From Gemmatimonadota bacterium (GTDB lineage Bacteria > Gemmatimonadota > Gemmatimonadetes > Palauibacterales > KS3-K002): a stretch of 39,168 bases of DNA. Both the position numbers and the translations under genes were made by a program. Location of the stretch: assembly GCA_020344375.1 (NCBI GenBank), contig CP070823.1, forward strand, positions 1,991,572 to 2,030,739, given 5' to 3'. The notes under the pieces were generated by a model. That model ran no database searches. It was not told the origin of the DNA and saw only the letters and a list, made by a program, of their open reading frames with translations. This document shows positions 9,989-18,158 of this stretch, piece by piece. Every line of letters begins with the position of its first letter. The first letter of the stretch is position 1.

Positions 9989-11017
9989 ATGGCAGACGAA
10001 GCGAAGCTGAAAGAGAAGCCGACGAAGCGGAAGAGCCAAAAGGCAGCCGAGCCCGTCGTCAGCAGCTCGGGCCTCGAGCTCAGTGAGGTGATCGTCGGTC
10101 AGGTCCGCAAGCGGATCGTCGGGCAAGAAGGGATGGTCGAGCGGATACTCATCGGGCTGCTGACCGGCGGCCATGTTCTGCTCGAGGGTGTCCCCGGGCT
10201 CGCCAAGACACTGGCCGTTCGCACGGTTGCCGAGACGATCAACACGCGCTTCCAGCGCATACAGTTCACACCGGACCTGCTGCCCGCCGATCTGATCGGC
10301 ACGATGATCTACAACCAGAAGACGGGCGACTTCGAGCCGAGGCAGGGCCCGATCTTCGCGAACATCATCCTGGCCGACGAGGTCAACCGGGCGCCGGCCA
10401 AGGTGCAGTCGGCCCTGCTGGAAGCGATGCAGGAGAAGCAGGTCACTTTCGGCGGGCAGACATTCGGGCTTGAAGAGCCGTTTCTCGTGCTGGCGACGCA
10501 GAACCCCATCGAACAGGAGGGCACCTACCCGCTGCCGGAGGCACAGGTCGACCGCTTCATGTTGAAGGTGAAGATCGGCTATCCGTCCCGCGACGAAGAG
10601 AAAGAGATCATGCGCAGGATGGCATCGGGCGACCCCATAGCGGTGGAAGTAGTGACGGAGCCAGGCGCGATCATGCAGGCACGCCGTGACATCGCCGAGC
10701 TCTACATCGATGACAAGGTCGCCGACTACATTGTCGACCTCGTGCAGGCGACCCGGCAGCCGGCGGACTACGGCCTTCCCGAGCTCGTGCCGCTCATCGA
10801 GTACGGTGCCTCGCCGCGCGCCTCGATCTACCTGGCCCAGACGGGCCGAGCGCACGCCTACCTGCGCGGGCGCGCCTACGTGATTCCGGACGATGTGAAG
10901 GCGATGGCGCCGGACGTGTTCCGTCACCGAATCATCACGACCTACGAGGCCGAGGCGGAGGAGGTCACTTCTGACGAGATCACTCGCCGCGTGCTCGAGA
11001 CTGTGGAGGTCCCCTAG
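9989..11017 (+). CDS. MoxR-family AAA+ ATPase
   Basis: The 342-residue ATPase has Walker A GVPGLAKT (67-74), Walker B IILADE (D130/E131), the sensor ATQNPIEQEGTYPLPEAQ with an arginine soon after, and the helical lid domain. MoxR proteins act as chaperone-like ATPases that activate partners carrying von Willebrand A domains. The N-terminal 25 residues are Lys/Glu-rich and probably disordered. It heads an operon of DUF58, VWA and TPR proteins, the usual MoxR/Bat arrangement. The ATG follows GGCAGG with 8 nt spacing. Confidence 0.94.
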   Translation: MADEAKLKEKPTKRKSQKAAEPVVSSSGLELSEVIVGQVRKRIVGQEGMVERILIGLLTGGHVLLEGVPGLAKTLAVRTVAETINTRFQRIQFTPDLLPADLIGTMIYNQKTGDFEPRQGPIFANIILADEVNRAPAKVQSALLEAMQEKQVTFGGQTFGLEEPFLVLATQNPIEQEGTYPLPEAQVDRFMLKVKIGYPSRDEEKEIMRRMASGDPIAVEVVTEPGAIMQARRDIAELYIDDKVADYIVDLVQATRQPADYGLPELVPLIEYGASPRASIYLAQTGRAHAYLRGRAYVIPDDVKAMAPDVFRHRIITTYEAEAEEVTSDEITRRVLETVEVP

Positions 11018-11024
11018 GCTGGAC

Positions 11025-11930
11025 ATGGAGCGGTCCCCCAGTGCGCAGGCCGTGCCTCGTGAGGTCTTGCGCCAGGTCAAGCTGATAGAACTGCGCACAC
11101 GCGGCCTGGTCGACACACACTTCAGCGGCGAGTACCAATCCGTATTCAAGGGGCAGGGGATGGAGTTTGCCGAGGTGCGTGAATACGTGCCCGGCGATGA
11201 GTACCGTACCATCGATTGGAACGTGTCGGCCCGAATGGGCCACCCCTACGTGAAGACCTACACCGAGGAGCGGGAGCTCAGCGTTCTGTTCGCGGTCGAT
11301 CTGTCGGGCTCGGCGCAGTTCGGGACGAGGGGCCGATTCAAGGCCGAGGTGGCAGCCGAGATCGCCGCCGTCGTCGCCATGGCAGCGATCAAGAACAACG
11401 ACCGGGTCGGCTTGGTGCTGTTCACCGACCGGATCGAGCAGTTCGTGCCGCCCAAGAAAGGTCGGCGGCACGCGCTGCGCCTCATCCGCGACCTGCTGGC
11501 GTTCGAGCCGAGCGCCCGGGGCACCGACCTGTCGGTCGCCTTGGACTACATCGGCCGCATACTGCGTCATCGGGCTATCGTGTTCCTGATCTCCGACTTC
11601 CAGGACAGCAACTTCGAGAAGTCGCTGAAGGTGGTCAGCCGGCGACACGATCTCGTGGCCGTGACGGTAGGCGACCCACGCGAGCGTGAGCTGCCGGATG
11701 TCGGCTACCTCGAGCTCATAGACGCGGAGACCGATCAGCGTATCGTACTGGACTCGGGAAACCGCTTCGTGCGTGAGCAATTCGAGCATCTGGCAACCGA
11801 AGACGAGGCCCGTCTGCGTCGTCTGTTGCGGCGCCTGTCGGTCGATCAGATCGAGATCCAGACGGATCGCTCCTACGTGCTTCCGCTGATCAATTTCTTC
11901 CGGGCACGGGAACGGAAGCTTGCGCGATGA
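11025..11930 (+). CDS. DUF58 domain protein with VWA-like fold
   Basis: The 301-residue protein carries the DUF58 signature GDEYRTIDWNVSAR (57-70). A VWA-like core begins LFAVDLSGSAQFGT and continues with VFLISDFQD. In the DxSxS position the sequence DLSGS keeps the metal-binding pattern. No signal peptide or membrane segment is visible, so it should be cytosolic. It is 7 nt after moxR and overlaps the next gene by 4 nt. DUF58 proteins accompany MoxR ATPases almost universally, and the MoxR protein is taken to act on it (family knowledge). Confidence 0.92.
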   Translation: MERSPSAQAVPREVLRQVKLIELRTRGLVDTHFSGEYQSVFKGQGMEFAEVREYVPGDEYRTIDWNVSARMGHPYVKTYTEERELSVLFAVDLSGSAQFGTRGRFKAEVAAEIAAVVAMAAIKNNDRVGLVLFTDRIEQFVPPKKGRRHALRLIRDLLAFEPSARGTDLSVALDYIGRILRHRAIVFLISDFQDSNFEKSLKVVSRRHDLVAVTVGDPRERELPDVGYLELIDAETDQRIVLDSGNRFVREQFEHLATEDEARLRRLLRRLSVDQIEIQTDRSYVLPLINFFRARERKLAR

Positions 11931-12967
11931 GCCTGCTCGCGGTTGCCCTGTTGTTGCTGACCGTCCAGGCGCTGCCCGCTGGGCAGGGTGGCGTCGAGCT
12001 GCGAGCGACGGTCGCGCCGGATTCCGTGCGTGTCGGCGACCGCATCACGCTGACCGTGGAGCTGAGCGGCGTGACGCGAGGCGCCGAAGTCGTGTTCCCC
12101 GAGCTTCCCGACAGCGGGGTCGTCGCGGCTCTCGGGCCGCCGCTGCGGCTCGCCGTATCGGCCGACGGGGCTCACTCGGCGCGCTATGAGCTGGTGGTGT
12201 GGGGCCTCGGCGTGGTGCCGCTGCCGGAGGCGGACGTGCGCATCGTGACGGAGTCAGCGGAGCTGCTCATCGCCACCCCGGCGCTGACGGTTCACGTGGC
12301 GTCGGTACTGCCGGCGGGCGCCGACCCGGACAGCTTGGCCTGGATGCCGCCGGCCGATGTGGTCGGCGGCAACTGGAGTACCCAGGAGAAGCTGGTCGCC
12401 GCGGGGCTCGCGCTGGCTCTGTTGTTGACCGCGGCTCTCTACGCCAGGCGGCGTGGGTCGGTTCAGCCGCCGCCGGCGCCGCCGGTGAGGCCTCCCCGGG
12501 AGCGGGCCCTGGCGGCGCTCGACGAGCTGGCGGCGCGAGGGCTCGCCGAGGCCGGCGAGCTGAAGGGCTTCTACTCGGGGCTTTCCCACATCCTGAGGGA
12601 GTTCCTCGCTGACAGCGATCGGCTGTGGGGGCTCGATCTCACCACGCTGGAGCTGGTCCAGGCGGTGGGTAGCGACGGTGTGGGCGAGTGGCGGCAGCGA
12701 GCGCTGGCCGGGCTGCTCGCGGGTGCCGATCTGGTCAAGTTCGCGCGACGGCGTCCGTCACGCGCTCAGGCCGCCCGGGCGCTCGACGCGGCACGCCGCT
12801 GGATCGTCGAGTTCGAGCGCGTCCCGATCGGGCCGCCGTCCGAATCGGAGGCAGCGCCGGAGGTCACGCCGGAGCCTGTGGATGACCTACTCGCTGCGAT
12901 GGACGAGGTTTTTGCGGAAGAGTTGGAGGCCGAAGAGCCCGGAGAAGCGGAGTCACTGGAGCCGTGA
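11927..12967 (+). CDS. BatD-like membrane protein with DUF4381-like cytosolic domain
   Basis: The 346-residue protein begins with a signal peptide (MSLLAVALLLLTVQALPAG). A beta-rich extracytoplasmic domain (about 25-130) with RVGDRITLTVELSG resembles the repeats of BatD. One membrane segment follows (LVAAGLALALLLTAALYARR), then a cytosolic helical domain with LKGFYSGLSHILREFLADSD as in DUF4381-type proteins, and an acidic tail. It overlaps both neighbours by 4 nt. Its order of domains repeats that of the first half of the large BatD-BatE protein downstream, so the operon contains two versions of this module. Function is unknown beyond association with the Bat system. Confidence 0.85.
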   Translation: MSLLAVALLLLTVQALPAGQGGVELRATVAPDSVRVGDRITLTVELSGVTRGAEVVFPELPDSGVVAALGPPLRLAVSADGAHSARYELVVWGLGVVPLPEADVRIVTESAELLIATPALTVHVASVLPAGADPDSLAWMPPADVVGGNWSTQEKLVAAGLALALLLTAALYARRRGSVQPPPAPPVRPPRERALAALDELAARGLAEAGELKGFYSGLSHILREFLADSDRLWGLDLTTLELVQAVGSDGVGEWRQRALAGLLAGADLVKFARRRPSRAQAARALDAARRWIVEFERVPIGPPSESEAAPEVTPEPVDDLLAAMDEVFAEELEAEEPGEAESLEP

Positions 12968-13938
12968 TCTTCGAGACGCCTTGGGCATTCGTTCTGCTCA
13001 TCATCTTCCCGCTCTGGTGGCTGTGGCGGCGGGAGCGAGGTGGCTTCCGCTATTCGCGTGCAGAGGTCGCGGCGCGTTCCGGGCGCCGGATCAGCCGTGT
13101 GCTGGCGGTTCTACCGGGCACGCTGCGCGGCCTGGCGGTGCTCGCGCTGATCGTTGCCTTGGCCCGGCCACAGACCGGCGTGGCGACAGAGGAGATCGAA
13201 GCCGAGGGTATCGCCATCGCCCTGGTCGTCGATATCTCGAGTTCGATGCTGGCGCTCGACATGCAGCCGCTGGACCGCTTGGAGGTAGCGAAGCGGACGG
13301 TCCTCGAGTTCGTCAGGAGCCGCCAGTACGACCGGATTGCGCTCGTCGCGTTCGCTGGCGAAGCGATTACGCAGGTGCCGCTCACGATCGACTACCGGAT
13401 ACTCGAGCGAGCCATCCAGGATCTCAGGACCGAACTGCTCGAGGACGGGACGGCAATCGGCACGGCGCTGGCCACGGCCGCCAACCGGCTGCGCCGCGCG
13501 CCGGGCAGCTCGAAGGTCGTGATCCTGCTGACGGACTGCGAGAACAACCGGGGCGAGGTCGATCCGATTACGGCGGCACGAGCGGCGGCGGCGTACGATA
13601 TCCGTACCTACACGGTCGGCGTCGGCAGTGAAGGGGTCGCGCCGGTACCGATCGGTCCGGGCCCGTTGGGCACCGAGTATGCGAGCATGCGGGTGCGTCT
13701 GGACGAAGATCTCCTGCGCCGGATTGCGGGCATCACCGGCGCTCAATACTTCCGGGCGACCAACGCCCGGGCGCTGGAGGAGATCTACCGTCAGATCGAC
13801 GAGCTGGAGAAGACGCCGGTCAACGTTCGTCGTTATGTCGAGTTCAGTGAGCATTTTCGATTGTTCGTTCTCCTGGCGGTGCTGCTGGTCCTCACGGAAT
13901 GGGTACTGCGCGTGCGCCGCTACCCGCTGTACGTCTGA
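12964..13938 (+). CDS. batA: BatA, membrane-anchored von Willebrand A protein
   Basis: The 324-residue protein has two N-terminal membrane segments (WAFVLLIIFPLWWLW and TLRGLAVLALIVAL), then the BatA-type sequence ARPQTG. A VWA domain follows with an intact metal site D90-I-S92-S-S94 (VVDISSSM) and a conserved DG loop (LLEDGTAIGTALA). A C-terminal membrane segment (LFVLLAVLLVLTEWVLR) closes it. The GTG start at 12964 overlaps the previous stop. Bat proteins are named for Bacteroides aerotolerance, but their molecular role is unresolved. The first of two VWA proteins in this operon matches BatA by order and length. Confidence 0.9.
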   Translation: MIFETPWAFVLLIIFPLWWLWRRERGGFRYSRAEVAARSGRRISRVLAVLPGTLRGLAVLALIVALARPQTGVATEEIEAEGIAIALVVDISSSMLALDMQPLDRLEVAKRTVLEFVRSRQYDRIALVAFAGEAITQVPLTIDYRILERAIQDLRTELLEDGTAIGTALATAANRLRRAPGSSKVVILLTDCENNRGEVDPITAARAAAAYDIRTYTVGVGSEGVAPVPIGPGPLGTEYASMRVRLDEDLLRRIAGITGAQYFRATNARALEEIYRQIDELEKTPVNVRRYVEFSEHFRLFVLLAVLLVLTEWVLRVRRYPLYV

Positions 13939-13969
13939 TGTCGGAAGGGTCACCCTCCGGAGGTAGGCG

Positions 13970-14983
13970 GTGAGGTTCGAGTATTCCGGCTGGATCTGGG
14001 CTGGCCTGGCGGCAGCAGCGCTCGTGGTCGCCCTGGTCTATCTGTGGCACCTGCGTCGCCGCAGTGCCCTGGACGCGCTTGGCAGTTCCGGGATGCTCGA
14101 GCGTCTGACCCGTATCGACCTTAGCGGCTCGCCGTACCGCCGCGGTGCGCTCGTCGCCGCCGCGTTGGCGCTGGCGGGCCTGGCGATGGCTGGCCCGCAG
14201 TGGGGTGCCCAGGAGGTCGAGGAACAGACACGCGCACTCGATGTGGTGGTGGCGCTGGACATCTCCGAGTCGATGTGGGCCGAGGACGTCAGGCCCAACC
14301 GCTTCGAGCGGCAGCGCCTCGCGGGCTGGCGCCTGGTCACCGAGCTGGCGGGCCACCGGATCGGGCTGGTGGCGTTCGCGGGCGCTGGCTACCAGCTGTC
14401 CCCGCTGACCATCGACCACAGTGCCCTGCACCTCTACCTGGACGCCCTCGATCCGACTGCGGCAGGCACGCCCGGCTCGTCGCCGGCCGGGGCGATCCGC
14501 CAGGCCGTATCGCTGTTGCAGGAAGCCCCCACGGAGGCAGGGGATCGCGCCATCGTCATCCTCAGCGACGGCGAGTCCCACGACGAGGAGAGAGAGGTGC
14601 TGGAGGCTGCCCGGGCGGCGGCGGCCGAGCGGATCCGTGTGTACGTGATCGGCATCGGCGGCGACCGCGGTGAGCCGATACCGCGGCATGACCCGATGGG
14701 CGGACGTATAGACGGCTACAAGCGGGATAGCGAAGGCGAGATCGTGCTGAGCCGCATGATGACGGAGCCCCTGTCCAGCGCGGCGCGGCTGACGCGAGGG
14801 CTCTGGGCTCGGGCCGACGAGGGCGGCATGAGCCGTGTGCTCGCGGCCCTGGCTGAGCTGCGGCGCGGCCGCGGGGACGTGACCCGTGGCGTGCGCTGGA
14901 CCCCCAGGTTCCAGTGGTTCGTCGCCGGGGCGTTGCTGTTGCTGGCCCTGGATTGGGTTTGGGCTTGGAGGCGGCAGCGATGA
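13970..14983 (+). CDS. batB: BatB, membrane-anchored von Willebrand A protein
   Basis: The 337-residue protein parallels BatA. It has N-terminal membrane segments (residues about 8-26 and 58-76), GPQWG before the VWA domain, and a metal site D97-I-S99-E-S101 (ALDISESM). ILSDGESHDEE is in the fourth strand region, and a C-terminal membrane segment (FVAGALLLLALDWVW) closes it. The GTG start has a strong GGAGG site (13959-13963) 6 nt upstream. Its stop overlaps the batC start. BatA and BatB are thought to assemble with each other and with the TPR protein at the membrane. Confidence 0.9.
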   Translation: MRFEYSGWIWAGLAAAALVVALVYLWHLRRRSALDALGSSGMLERLTRIDLSGSPYRRGALVAAALALAGLAMAGPQWGAQEVEEQTRALDVVVALDISESMWAEDVRPNRFERQRLAGWRLVTELAGHRIGLVAFAGAGYQLSPLTIDHSALHLYLDALDPTAAGTPGSSPAGAIRQAVSLLQEAPTEAGDRAIVILSDGESHDEEREVLEAARAAAAERIRVYVIGIGGDRGEPIPRHDPMGGRIDGYKRDSEGEIVLSRMMTEPLSSAARLTRGLWARADEGGMSRVLAALAELRRGRGDVTRGVRWTPRFQWFVAGALLLLALDWVWAWRRQR

Positions 14984-15699
14984 GGCGCGTAACGGTCCTG
15001 CTTCTGCTGACCATCGTCCTGCCGGGCTTCCAGCCCTGGGGCCAGGAGGCCGGCGGGAATCGCGCCTACCGCCGCGGTGACTACGTGAAGGCCGTGGAGC
15101 GCTACCGGGGCACGATTCAGCGGCGCGGCTCGACGCCGCGGTTGCAGTACAACCTGGGTACCGCCCTGCTACAGCTCGGCGAGTGGGAAGCGGCTCGCGA
15201 AAGGCTGAGCGAGGCGGTGCAGGCTCAGTCCCCGGAGCTGCAGAGCCGTGCGTTCTACAACCTGGGCAACGCTCTGGCCGGGGATCCGTCGGCGGTCACG
15301 GCGGAGACCCTGCGGGCAGCGATCCGCGCCTACCGCAGGTCACTGCTGCTTGATCCGGAGCGCGCTGACACGCGTTGGAACCTGGAGCTGGCCATGCGCC
15401 GGCTCCAGGAGCTGGAGAGCAGCCGTCAGCCGCTGAGCGGTCCGGAGCAGCGACCGACGCCGCCAGAGGGGGAGGGCGCCGGCGTGGAAGAGGGTCCGGT
15501 GGAGGGAGGCCCACAGTCGGTCCAGCCACGCGCGGGCCCGGCCGAACGCCGCCAGGCCACGGGGCCCGAGGCCGTGGAAACGCCGCTGCCCCGCGGGCTG
15601 GCCGAGCAGGTGCTGCGGGCCGTCGAGGAGCGGGAGCGCGGCCTGCAGCGCGAGAAGCTGAGGCGCCAGAGACGGCGCGTGCGAGGTCCAGATTGGTGA
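14980..15699 (+). CDS. batC: BatC, exported TPR protein
   Basis: The 239-residue protein starts with a signal peptide (MRRVTVLLLLTIVLPGF). TPR helices follow: NRAYRRGDYVKAVERY, LQYNLGTALLQLGEWEAA, FYNLGNALAGD and AAIRAYRRSLLLDPERADT. The second half is Pro/Glu-rich linker ending in a basic helix. ATG 14980 is chosen because GGAGG (14967-14971) precedes it and the sequence after it is a good signal peptide. A GTG farther upstream would put 22 residues before it. Both ends overlap the neighbours. The TPR part probably mediates contacts with BatA/BatB in the periplasm. Confidence 0.87.
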   Translation: MRRVTVLLLLTIVLPGFQPWGQEAGGNRAYRRGDYVKAVERYRGTIQRRGSTPRLQYNLGTALLQLGEWEAARERLSEAVQAQSPELQSRAFYNLGNALAGDPSAVTAETLRAAIRAYRRSLLLDPERADTRWNLELAMRRLQELESSRQPLSGPEQRPTPPEGEGAGVEEGPVEGGPQSVQPRAGPAERRQATGPEAVETPLPRGLAEQVLRAVEERERGLQREKLRRQRRRVRGPDW

Positions 15700-18158
15700 T
15701 GACGCGGCTGCTTCTGTTCCTGTTGTTCCCGCTGCAGGTGGGAGTACAGGCCGAGGTGCGGATGAACGCGGCGCTGAACCGCCGGACGGCGCGGGTCGGA
15801 GAGACGGTGCTGCTGACCGTCACGCTGCACGCACCTGGACTCTACGGCCCCGAGATCGAGGATCCGGCTCTTGACGGATTCGAGGTGCTCTCCAGCTCCG
15901 ACCGTTCCTCGTTCCGTTTCTCGCCTTCGCTGGGCGCGGTTCGCGAGTTCACCCGCGAGTACACCCTCAGGGTTCAGCGGGCGGGTGAGCTGACGATCCC
16001 GCCGATCCGTGCCTCGGTGGACGGCGTCTACTACGAGACCGAGGCGTTGCAGTTCATGGCTGAGCCCGGAGAGACGGCCGCGGATTTCCCGAGCAGTCTG
16101 TTGCCTCGGGCCGAGGAGGAGGTCGCGGTGCGGCTCTGGGTGGAGCCCGAGACGGCCTACGTCGGGCAACAGGTAACGATGACCGTAGGCGCGTTCTTCG
16201 AGCCACTCGTGCGCGGTCGCTTGCAGCGCCAGCCCGAGTACCGGCCGCCCGAGGTCCAGGGGTTCTGGACGGCGGACCTTCCGGGATCGCCGCGACCGGA
16301 ACGCCGAGTCTATGGCCGGCGCGAGTACTTCATTCAGGTGTACAGGCGCGCGCTCTTCCCACTCAGTCCCGGCACCTTCCGCATCCCTCCCGCCGCGGTC
16401 ATCTACGAGGTGCGACGCGGCCTGATCTTCGCACCCGAGACCTTCGAGGTCGAGAGCGCTCCGGCGACCGTGGTGGTCCGACCGCTGCCTCTAGAGAACA
16501 TGCCGGCGGAGTTCGTCGGCGCCGTTGGCCGCTACGAGGCCGAGGTCTGGCTGGATCGTTCCGACTTGCGTGCTGGGGAGGCGGTGAACCTCGTCGTGGA
16601 AGTGCACGGCACCGGGAATCTGAGCTCGATCGCACGCCCCGAGTTCCCGGAGGTCCCCGGCATGCGCGTCTACGAGGGCGGGGAAGACGCCGAGGTGCAG
16701 CTCCGTGGGGTGGAGTTCGCGGGCCACAAGCGTTTCTCCTGGGTCCTCATTCCCGAGCGACCAGGCCAGTACGTGCTGCCTGAGCTACATCTGCCTTACT
16801 TCGATCCGCTGGAAGCGACCTATGTGGTGGCGCGTACAGAGCCGATGTCCCTACTCGTCGCGCCTTCTCCGGCAGCGGCTGTCGCGGCTGGCGTGTCGGG
16901 TGGGACCGCGATTCGCTTCATCAAAGCGCGTCCCGGCCGCCAGGGGTGGGGAATGCCGCGCAGGATGGTCTTCTGGCTGGTGCAGGCGGCCCCGCTCGCG
17001 GTCCTGCTGGCGTTCATCGCTTTCGGCCACTACCGGAGTCGCGTGCCGGTGCTTACGCGCCGACGACCGCGGCGCAGGCAGCGGTTGGTGCGGGACCTGC
17101 ACCCGCTGGCTGAATCCGGCGACGCCGCGTTCTTCGCTCAGCTCCGGGCCAGCCTGCTCGACTGGCTGGGTTGGCGACTCCACCTGCCCGAGCTGTCGGC
17201 TCAAGGGGTCGTGCAGGTGCAGCACGCGCTCGAGGATTTCGGAGTTCCTCCGCCGGTTGCGCTCGAGGTGATCGACCTCCTGGAGGAGTGCGGCCGCTTG
17301 CGATATCAGCCCGACCCGCCGGGTCCGACGGTGGCGCGCGAGTTCCTGGAACGGGCCAATCGGCTGCTGGCTTTGGTGGACAGAGAGGCCGTCTCGGAGA
17401 AGCACCTGCGAGAGACGCCCGGGATGGGGAGCTCGCTCTACCTGCTGGCCTGTGTGCTGCTCGCGCTGTCGGTGCAGCTGGCGACGGCGCAGGAGAGGTT
17501 TGGCATCGAAGGCGCGGCGGCGCGCTGGTTCCAGGACGGCGTAGCGGCCTACGGGCGTGGCGACTACTTACAGGCGCGCGAGTTCTTCGAGCGCGCTCTG
17601 GCGGTGCGGCCCCAGGACCCCAATCTCCTGTACAATCTCGGGAACGCCCACTACGAGCTTGGGGAGCGCGGAAGAGCCGTGGCGTTTTGGGTGAGAGCGC
17701 TTCGCGTCCGGCCCCGGGACGCTGATGCCCGGTTCAACCTGAGGCTGGTCGTTGGCGATGATCCGGTCGTGGGCAGCGCTCTTCCGGCACTGCCGCTCTC
17801 CGGCGACGAGATGGCGCTCCTCTTCACACTGCTCTGGTTCGGCGGGTGCGCTACGCTGATCGCGCGTCGGCGCTGGCGGAAAGGCTATCTAACGTTCGGC
17901 GGCGGGGCCGCGCTGACGCTGGCGGTTCTGTGTGCCGCCTTGATGCTGTACCCGCGTTCTCGCTACGCGATCATCGCGGGATCCGACTCGGTCCTGCGTG
18001 CTGGACCGATGCGGGCTAGCGAGGTCCTGACCTCTCCGCCGCCGGGGACCGGCTATCGGGTGCAGGAGCGGCGCGGCGAGTGGCTCCGGGTGTCGCGTGG
18101 CGGGGAGAGCGAGGGCTGGGTGGAGCGCGGCCACGTCGAGTTGATCGACTCGCGCTGA
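15699..18158 (+). CDS. BatD-BatE fusion: oxygen-tolerance beta domain, membrane segments, TPR and SH3-like domain
   Basis: This 819-residue frame joins two proteins usually encoded separately. It begins with a signal peptide (MTRLLLFLLFPLQVGVQA), then BatD beta domains to about 400, a membrane segment (FWLVQAAPLAVLLAFIAF) and a cytosolic helical domain. A second hydrophobic stretch (LYLLACVLLALSVQLATA, from codon 579) looks like an old BatE signal peptide. After it come TPR helices (GVAAYGRGDYLQAREFFERA), two more membrane segments and an SH3-like end (GEWLRVSRGGESEGWVE). The basic RRRWRKGY loop fits the cytosolic side. ATG 15699 overlaps the batC stop; GTG 15696 is equally in frame. An in-frame ATG at 17424 could still start a separate BatE. 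Confidence 0.88.
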   Translation: MTRLLLFLLFPLQVGVQAEVRMNAALNRRTARVGETVLLTVTLHAPGLYGPEIEDPALDGFEVLSSSDRSSFRFSPSLGAVREFTREYTLRVQRAGELTIPPIRASVDGVYYETEALQFMAEPGETAADFPSSLLPRAEEEVAVRLWVEPETAYVGQQVTMTVGAFFEPLVRGRLQRQPEYRPPEVQGFWTADLPGSPRPERRVYGRREYFIQVYRRALFPLSPGTFRIPPAAVIYEVRRGLIFAPETFEVESAPATVVVRPLPLENMPAEFVGAVGRYEAEVWLDRSDLRAGEAVNLVVEVHGTGNLSSIARPEFPEVPGMRVYEGGEDAEVQLRGVEFAGHKRFSWVLIPERPGQYVLPELHLPYFDPLEATYVVARTEPMSLLVAPSPAAAVAAGVSGGTAIRFIKARPGRQGWGMPRRMVFWLVQAAPLAVLLAFIAFGHYRSRVPVLTRRRPRRRQRLVRDLHPLAESGDAAFFAQLRASLLDWLGWRLHLPELSAQGVVQVQHALEDFGVPPPVALEVIDLLEECGRLRYQPDPPGPTVAREFLERANRLLALVDREAVSEKHLRETPGMGSSLYLLACVLLALSVQLATAQERFGIEGAAARWFQDGVAAYGRGDYLQAREFFERALAVRPQDPNLLYNLGNAHYELGERGRAVAFWVRALRVRPRDADARFNLRLVVGDDPVVGSALPALPLSGDEMALLFTLLWFGGCATLIARRRWRKGYLTFGGGAALTLAVLCAALMLYPRSRYAIIAGSDSVLRAGPMRASEVLTSPPPGTGYRVQERRGEWLRVSRGGESEGWVERGHVELIDSR

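Follow-up and report, generated by a model that had tools for sequence, protein, structure and literature searches.

A BatD-BatE fusion in Gemmatimonadota with an internal segment resembling the BatE signal peptide

In the species where its role has been considered, the Bat complex is associated with envelope or oxidative stress. Fusions between bat genes are on record in several bacteria: the available text of one study describes BB0170/BH0170 of Borrelia, from a MoxR-Bat gene region, as an apparent fusion of homologues of the Bacteroides proteins BF2416 and BF2415 (PMC5700661), and that of another reports a batB-batC fusion in Leptospira biflexa alongside other bat fusions in Borrelia burgdorferi, Spirochaeta thermophila and Francisella tularensis (PMC3557215). 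Here we consider a stretch of 39,168 nucleotides from a Gemmatimonadota bacterium (assembly GCA_020344375.1, contig CP070823.1, positions 1,991,572 to 2,030,739 of the forward strand; hereinafter the window), whose Bat operon ends in a single gene, batD-batE. This gene stems from an old fusion and retains an internal signal-like seam between its two halves; cleavage by signal peptidase I (SPase I) after A597 at this seam is predicted, and, with a probability of roughly 0.55, we consider it slightly likelier than not.

The gene lies at 15699-18158 on the plus strand as one open frame of 819 amino acids (aa), with a terminal stop only. The Pfam family BatD (PF13584) matches its product best over aa 25-119 (whole-protein E 6.5e-24), and the same frame carries matches to TPR families, with their best stretches within aa 614-677, and to SH3_3 at aa 766-813 (E 3.6e-7). 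Residues 1-538 align with the BatD of Parabacteroides distasonis, cytoplasmic tail included (BLASTP E 2e-28; profile comparison probability 99.9%), and residues 611-816 with the separate TPR gene situated 3' of batD in that organism (BLASTP E 2e-16; profile comparison 99.1%). In terms of sequence and structure model, the first half displays what is expected of a BatD, namely a signal peptide, a predicted periplasmic beta part, one helix and a predicted cytoplasmic helical tail, and the second half displays the order expected of a BatE, with the TPR followed by a membrane pair and the SH3. The preliminary description of this DNA, which had placed a BatD and a BatE half in one uninterrupted 819-residue frame, is thus borne out by the frame, the Pfam matches and the Parabacteroides alignments.

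The joining is genuine and brings a complete BatD and a complete BatE into one frame. A family search recovered a match in all eight genomes of the window's family (f1; its own genome included), and the junction falls inside one open frame, with frames cut at every stop, in seven of them; in the eighth (G003) the gene runs off the contig edge. The single TGA that this search flagged in G004 is away from the junction, and one open frame of 865 aa covers query positions 13-817 there. The nearest named record belongs to the Gemmatimonadota metagenome-assembled genome CP070815.1 and is 73% identical; alignment A1 gathers 43 relatives, of which the members from beyond the family share 23-36% identity with the window. 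PF13584 matches 42 of the 44 members of A1 (the window counted), and a genome search with it gave two places above the cut-off. Within f1, the BatD tail just ahead of the junction (aa 546-570) has an identity of 0.60 and no insertions or deletions (indels), which fits an in-frame, translated junction.

Beyond the family, a search of the class matched 197 of 295 genomes, and 165 BatD loci were classified among the matches listed plus the BatD rows of f2, the sister family: 97 are fused, 53 split, 4 have BatD alone and 11 meet a contig end. The comparison of homologous operons thereby found fused and split forms alike, and reading ambiguous codons as X in the census and motif tables changed no class. 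The fused share is 7/8 in f1, 7/8 in f3, 3/4 in f4, 25/30 in f5, 53/62 in f7, 2/37 in f6, 0/15 in f2 and 0/1 in f9; the split loci are distributed over f6 (33), f2 (14), f5 (4), f4 (1) and f7 (1), and in the sister class f11 all six loci are split. Included among the 53 are L091, where an in-frame TGA interrupts the BatD part, and L072, where the frame is perhaps broken; given these breaks, both resemble damaged fusions more than genuine splits. A rooted tree of 107 rows, with f11 as the outgroup, f6 and f7 thinned, and L115, L120, L098, L068, L091 and L072 omitted, unites the fused loci of f1, f3, f4, f5 and f7 in one clade (Shimodaira-Hasegawa-like approximate likelihood ratio test, SH-aLRT, 99), beside a split clade composed of f2, f6 and second f5 copies (support 100). 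It needs four state changes: the main fusion, a further fusion at L103, and apparent splits at L095 and L181. Six are required by an earlier, 150-row tree that lacks an outgroup, in which f4 (95) and f1+f3 (83) lie closer to the split clade; in both trees, a branch with support 100 separates the main split clade from the rest. Because these two quick trees differ on f4 and on the side of f1/f3, the depth of the fusion event rests on the rooted tree. Taken together, the sequences point to one main old fusion and an independent fusion at L103. The 17 unfused BatD tails that we compared end near the position where the fused BatD runs on, and no domain appears to have been visibly lost on either side at the joining. 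Further, in L214 (G297, f11) batD and batE share one frame and are parted by a single TGA; this near-fusion indicates that the step to fusion can be small. Two f5 genomes, G272 (L065/L066) and G169 (L067/L068), carry one fused and one split copy each, with the split copies joining the f2/f6 clade, a grouping to be expected from transfer or an old duplication.

The seam itself, aa 576-597, reads MGSSLYLLACVLLALSVQLATA and is followed by Q598, such that its end reads ATA/Q. The signal-like segment of free BatE proteins in the split clade, which often ends in Ala-Gln, occupies the homologous place; in the fused protein a candidate for BatE's own signal peptide is at that place, but internal, and it is signal-like in both sequence and drift. 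At the seam-equivalent place, and by our own reading of the cut site, BatE of P. distasonis has SAYA/Q and that of Bacteroides finegoldii has CFG/Q, i.e., Gly-Gln. A Gln after the cut has been described as a mark of SPase I substrates in Bacteroidetes, which, in the available text of the same paper, is not valid for the whole Fibrobacteres-Chlorobi-Bacteroidetes (FCB) group or related phyla (PMC5837995). As the literature limits the mark to Bacteroidetes, Ala-Gln enrichment was tested on the present loci. Of 96 fused seams, 48 have Ala-Gln after the hydrophobic core, against 25.3 expected from shuffling (L115, counted as fused, has no hydrophobic core and hence is outside the seams scored), as do 31 of 53 free BatE signals (11.9 shuffled). 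The corresponding counts are 5/97 for helix 4 of the fused proteins, which has the same orientation as the seam (10.1 shuffled), 3/94 for helix 3 (4.1) and 4/93 for helix 1 (3.9). Genera with Ala-Gln in at least half of their members number 32 of 58 for the seam and 3 of 59 for helix 4 (Fisher p about 1e-9, related sequences not being independent in the seam counts). By family, the seam has it in 4/7 of f1, 4/7 of f3, 2/3 of f4, 22/25 of f5, 1/1 of f6 and 15/53 of f7. In loci with Ala-Gln, the distance from the Q to the TPR anchor has a median of 11 residues in both the fused (48) and the free (30) proteins. A looser pattern (a small or aliphatic residue, any residue, Ala, then Gln, Asp or Glu) is found in 55/96 seams (33.5 shuffled) as against 18/97 in helix 4 of fused proteins (24.6). 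At the N-terminal signals of BatD, scorable in 52/53 split and 53/97 fused loci, Ala-Gln is present in 30/52 of the former (16.3 shuffled) and, more weakly, in 18/53 of the latter (12.3).

A lipobox pattern was also considered and set aside as weak overall (5/96 seams against 1.9 shuffled); helix 3, which is no signal, has it in 8/94 against 1.3. In genus g19, three of the seven fetched members, L127 (G202), L135 (G137) and L159 (G015), have a possible lipobox at the end of the internal segment (FAGC, LGAC and a weak TMGC), and the remaining four have Ala-Gln. The window's genome itself has three matches to the S26 family of signal peptidases above the cut-off, of which two adjoin each other at G000:C1:1738740-1740154 and the third, weaker one lies elsewhere.

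The seam also drifts in the manner of a signal peptide. In f1 its identity is 0.24 (indels 0.19), as is that of the N-terminal signal (0.24), against 0.40 for helix 1, 0.55 for helix 3 and 0.51 for helix 4; neither the N-terminal signal (0.00) nor these helices have indels. When equal 20-residue segments were compared in four families and in those five of the selected genera that have at least three fused members, the seam was less conserved than helices 1 and 3 in 5/5 genera and than helix 4 in 4/5, and had the lowest conservation among the four hydrophobic segments in g35, g44, g49 and g19. An AlphaFold model of the 819-aa protein has a mean predicted local distance difference test score (pLDDT) of 88 and a predicted template modeling score (pTM) of 0.47. 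Its pLDDT blocks over aa 571-600 range from 47 to 62, similar to the N-terminal signal (53-57); those within helices 1, 3 and 4 range from 86 to 95, except for 57 at aa 441-450, the end of helix 1. The low pTM would be consistent with two halves that lack a fixed mutual placement. A fold search of the model against the PDB yielded, among the best 50 matches, none named Bat (template modeling score to the model at most 0.12); these are mostly chains with Ig-like or other beta domains and TPR chains, and matches to the TPR stretch are likewise among the best 60 listed from a sequence search of the PDB.

The predicted topology places the Ig-like, TPR and SH3 parts in the periplasm and the BatD tail in the cytoplasm, in agreement with the hydrophobic segments and with the positively charged loop RRRWRKG that connects helices 3 and 4, the last two. 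The preliminary description, which had both the beta domain and the TPR/SH3 part facing the periplasm, accords with this, and its view that the internal hydrophobic stretch descends from the signal peptide of BatE is upheld by the location of that stretch where free BatE has its signal peptide. We propose the following course of events. The gene is probably translated as one chain, because no internal start is conserved. The N-terminal signal would export the Ig-like domains of BatD, which helix 1 would then anchor, with the BatD tail staying in the cytoplasm. The former BatE signal peptide (aa 576-597) would re-enter the translocon and export the TPR part, and helices 3 and 4 would then put the SH3 domain in the periplasm. 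Finally, SPase I would cut after A597 to yield BatD and a mature BatE of 222 aa in equal amounts from one precursor. The signal-like character of the seam, its fast drift and the three S26 matches together tip our judgment somewhat toward such a cut. The earlier proposal that the fusion implies a fixed covalent 1:1 unit is unsupported, given the Ala-Gln in half of the seams, their lower conservation than the other helices in most comparisons and the low pLDDT; as a fusion sets the ratio of synthesis and not the final state of the protein, the 1:1 claim covers synthesis only. In f7, cleavage may have been partly lost. Much more tentatively, and with doubts outweighing confidence, we suggest a branch of Gemmatimonadota-type bacteria in which a signal peptidase cuts a two-subunit Bat precursor internally, with the g19 site swinging between SPase I and a lipobox and some species setting free a lipoprotein BatE from within a longer chain.

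The foremost alternative, to which we accord a substantial minority chance, is that the chain remains uncut, with the old signal peptide serving as a permanent membrane helix or a tolerated linker helix in one multi-helix protein. This would sit well with a single frame maintained over five families, and several observations weigh against cleavage. Ala-Gln is absent from the seam in 3/7 of f1, 38/53 of f7 and some members of f3. It is also absent where a cut might be expected: the N-terminal signals of BatD have it in 0/7 of f1 and 4/24 of f5, from which we conclude that it is a frequent but not a necessary mark, and the free BatE signals of f2 have it in only 3/14. The A-x-A motif is not enriched in the seams of these Ala-rich proteins (69/96 against 68.8 shuffled) and was dropped as a cleavage mark, since shuffled sequences equal it; the looser pattern is raised in helix 4 of split BatE as well (12/53 against 6.9). 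The median hydrophobic run of the seam (18) equals that of helix 4 (18) and resembles that of free signals (19), and run length was rejected as a discriminator, the classes not being separated by it. As for the drift, the f1 seam has indels where the N-terminal signal has none, and the linker behind it, aa 598-610, matches it in variability (0.20, indels 0.29). The contrast is weak in f3 (seam 0.19, helix 4 0.22, BatD tail 0.21, cytoplasmic domain 0.23), helix 4 is level with the seam in g42 (0.29 against 0.30), and the whole-family gap between seam and helix 4 is small in f3, f5 and f7. Low pLDDT and fast drift would equally suit an unconstrained linker helix. Further, the divergent fused protein L115 (G160) is still joined, though the helix, the cytoplasmic domain and the internal signal between its Ig-like and BatE parts are apparently missing. 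Set against an uncut chain are the faster drift of the seam relative to helices 1 and 3 in every genus compared and to helix 4 in all but one, the Ala-Gln kept in 32 of 58 genera, and the case of L013 (G006), whose hydrophobic part is reduced to about AIALLLLPA, which is short for a membrane helix.

A second alternative, which we consider improbable, is that BatE is additionally made alone from an internal start such as the ATG at 17424, which the preliminary description had singled out. This codon does exist (aa 576), just ahead of the hydrophobic core, and in some relatives different start codons fall within the 30 codons preceding that core. However, a simple pattern search found no Shine-Dalgarno-like match ahead of it, the Met at aa 576 is not conserved in f1, and the f1 members L011 and L013 have no ATG, GTG or TTG in those 30 codons; among loci with a core, an ATG occurs in that stretch in 20/96 fused as against 35/53 split. 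An internal BatE start was hence rejected for lack of conservation. Lastly, the idea that the fusion is an artifact of assembly or sequencing, with a stop or frameshift near 17400 concealed, has a negligible chance and is rejected for the family. Breaks do exist in these genomes, as in L091 and perhaps in L072, but the junction is open in every family genome bar the one cut by its contig as well as in the 97 fused loci, with A1 members from beyond the family having no more than 23-36% identity.

The fused gene closes an operon (9989-18158) in the order moxR, DUF58, small BatD-like protein, batA, batB, batC and batDE, within which the Bat order of MoxR, DUF58, VWA pair, TPR, BatD and BatE is present (Table 1). 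The batC frame ends at 15699, its stop overlapping the batD-batE start, whose ATG is at 15699; the batC start at 14980 is a chosen one, the listed frame opening at 14914. The best NCBIfam matches of batA, batB and batC are the Leptospira Bat models, all below the cut-off; the BatA N-terminal domain of Pfam likewise scores 24.0 bits in batA, under its cut-off of 25.9. The product of 11927-12967 has only a weak Pfam match to DUF4381 (E 0.1).

Table 1. Genes of the Bat operon and segments of the batD-batE product, in window coordinates; segment assignments are predictions
Feature	Position	Strand	Evidence
moxR (AAA_3 ATPase), first Bat operon gene	9989..11017	+	Pfam AAA_3 E 9.7e-66; Parabacteroides AAA ATPase gene in the same place
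DUF58 protein	11025..11930	+	Pfam DUF58 E 6.1e-80
Small BatD-like membrane protein, between DUF58 gene and batA	11927..12967	+	BLASTP E 6e-14 to Parabacteroides counterpart (hypothetical)
batA (VWA)	12964..13938	+	Pfam VWA E 4.6e-19; NCBIfam Leptospira BatA model E 6.9e-51, below cut-off
batB (VWA)	13970..14983	+	Pfam VWA_2 E 8.4e-14; Leptospira BatB model E 1.4e-25, below cut-off
batC (TPR)	14980..15699	+	Pfam TPR_16 E 8.7e-11; Leptospira BatC model E 3.8e-14, below cut-off
batD-batE fused gene, 819 aa	15699..18158	+	Single frame, Pfam, Parabacteroides alignments
N-terminal signal peptide, aa 1-18 (end approximate)	15699..15752	+	Hydrophobic start; 0.24 identity in family
BatD periplasmic beta domains, aa 20-390	15756..16868	+	Pfam BatD; beta strands, high pLDDT over most
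Membrane helix 1, aa 423-445	16965..17033	+	Hydrophobicity scan; model helix 423-448
BatD cytoplasmic helical domain and tail, aa 452-571	17052..17411	+	Model; Parabacteroides alignment; stops close to where split BatD proteins stop
Internal signal-peptide-like segment, aa 576-597, ending ATA/Q	17424..17489	+	Ala-Gln, drift, pLDDT
Predicted SPase I cut between A597 and Q598	Q codon 17490-17492	+	
BatE TPR domain, aa 607-693	17517..17777	+	Pfam TPR, model helices
BatE membrane pair, helices 3 and 4, aa 704-722 and 731-753	17808..17957	+	Hydrophobicity scan, conservation, model
BatE SH3 domain, aa 756-816	17964..18146	+	Pfam SH3_3, model strands

Among the relatives, genus g17 of f6 presents rows of five, three and five large BatD-like genes beside batE in L218 (G039), L219 (G013) and L220 (G124), respectively; all but one gene per row end near profile position 376 and thus are without the helix and cytoplasmic tail. 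In genus g37, L074, L117 and L118 are short BatD-like genes with no BatE match in the fetched flank.

Among the systems nearest to that of the window are those of Bacteroidota. P. distasonis has the same gene order, i.e., AAA ATPase, DUF58, hypothetical, VWA, VWA, TPR, BatD and TPR, and both it and B. finegoldii have the same BatD and BatE domains, with a BatE that starts with a signal-like segment and then Gln; the difference is that BatD and BatE are two genes there, with BatE having its own start. For the seam, a parallel is the fused cytochrome b/c1 precursor encoded by fbcH of Bradyrhizobium, which experiment has shown to be cut at an internal signal peptide; the proteins are unrelated to BatD and BatE, and the cut at the batDE seam is a predicted one. 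If that seam is indeed cut, it would be a natural way of holding two subunits equimolar, at an internal site that differs between genera. Gene fusion then need not mean protein fusion, contrary to a common assumption in the fusion-based prediction of complexes. A literature search, with most subscription papers outside its reach, found, among the best-ranked entries, no Bat fusion in Gemmatimonadota and no processing of such a seam. The batB-batC fusion of L. biflexa is alike in the joining of neighboring bat genes and differs in the partners (available text of PMC3557215). BB0170 of Borrelia is alike in having BatD, TPR and SH3 domains in one protein, and differs in belonging to another phylum, the likeness being one of published description (available text of PMC5700661); since a fusion of these three domains has already been published for it, the architecture is not new. 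The presence of a BatD-BatE fusion in a second phylum, traced back to a single main event of old date, is a further, independent indication that BatD and BatE operate next to each other.

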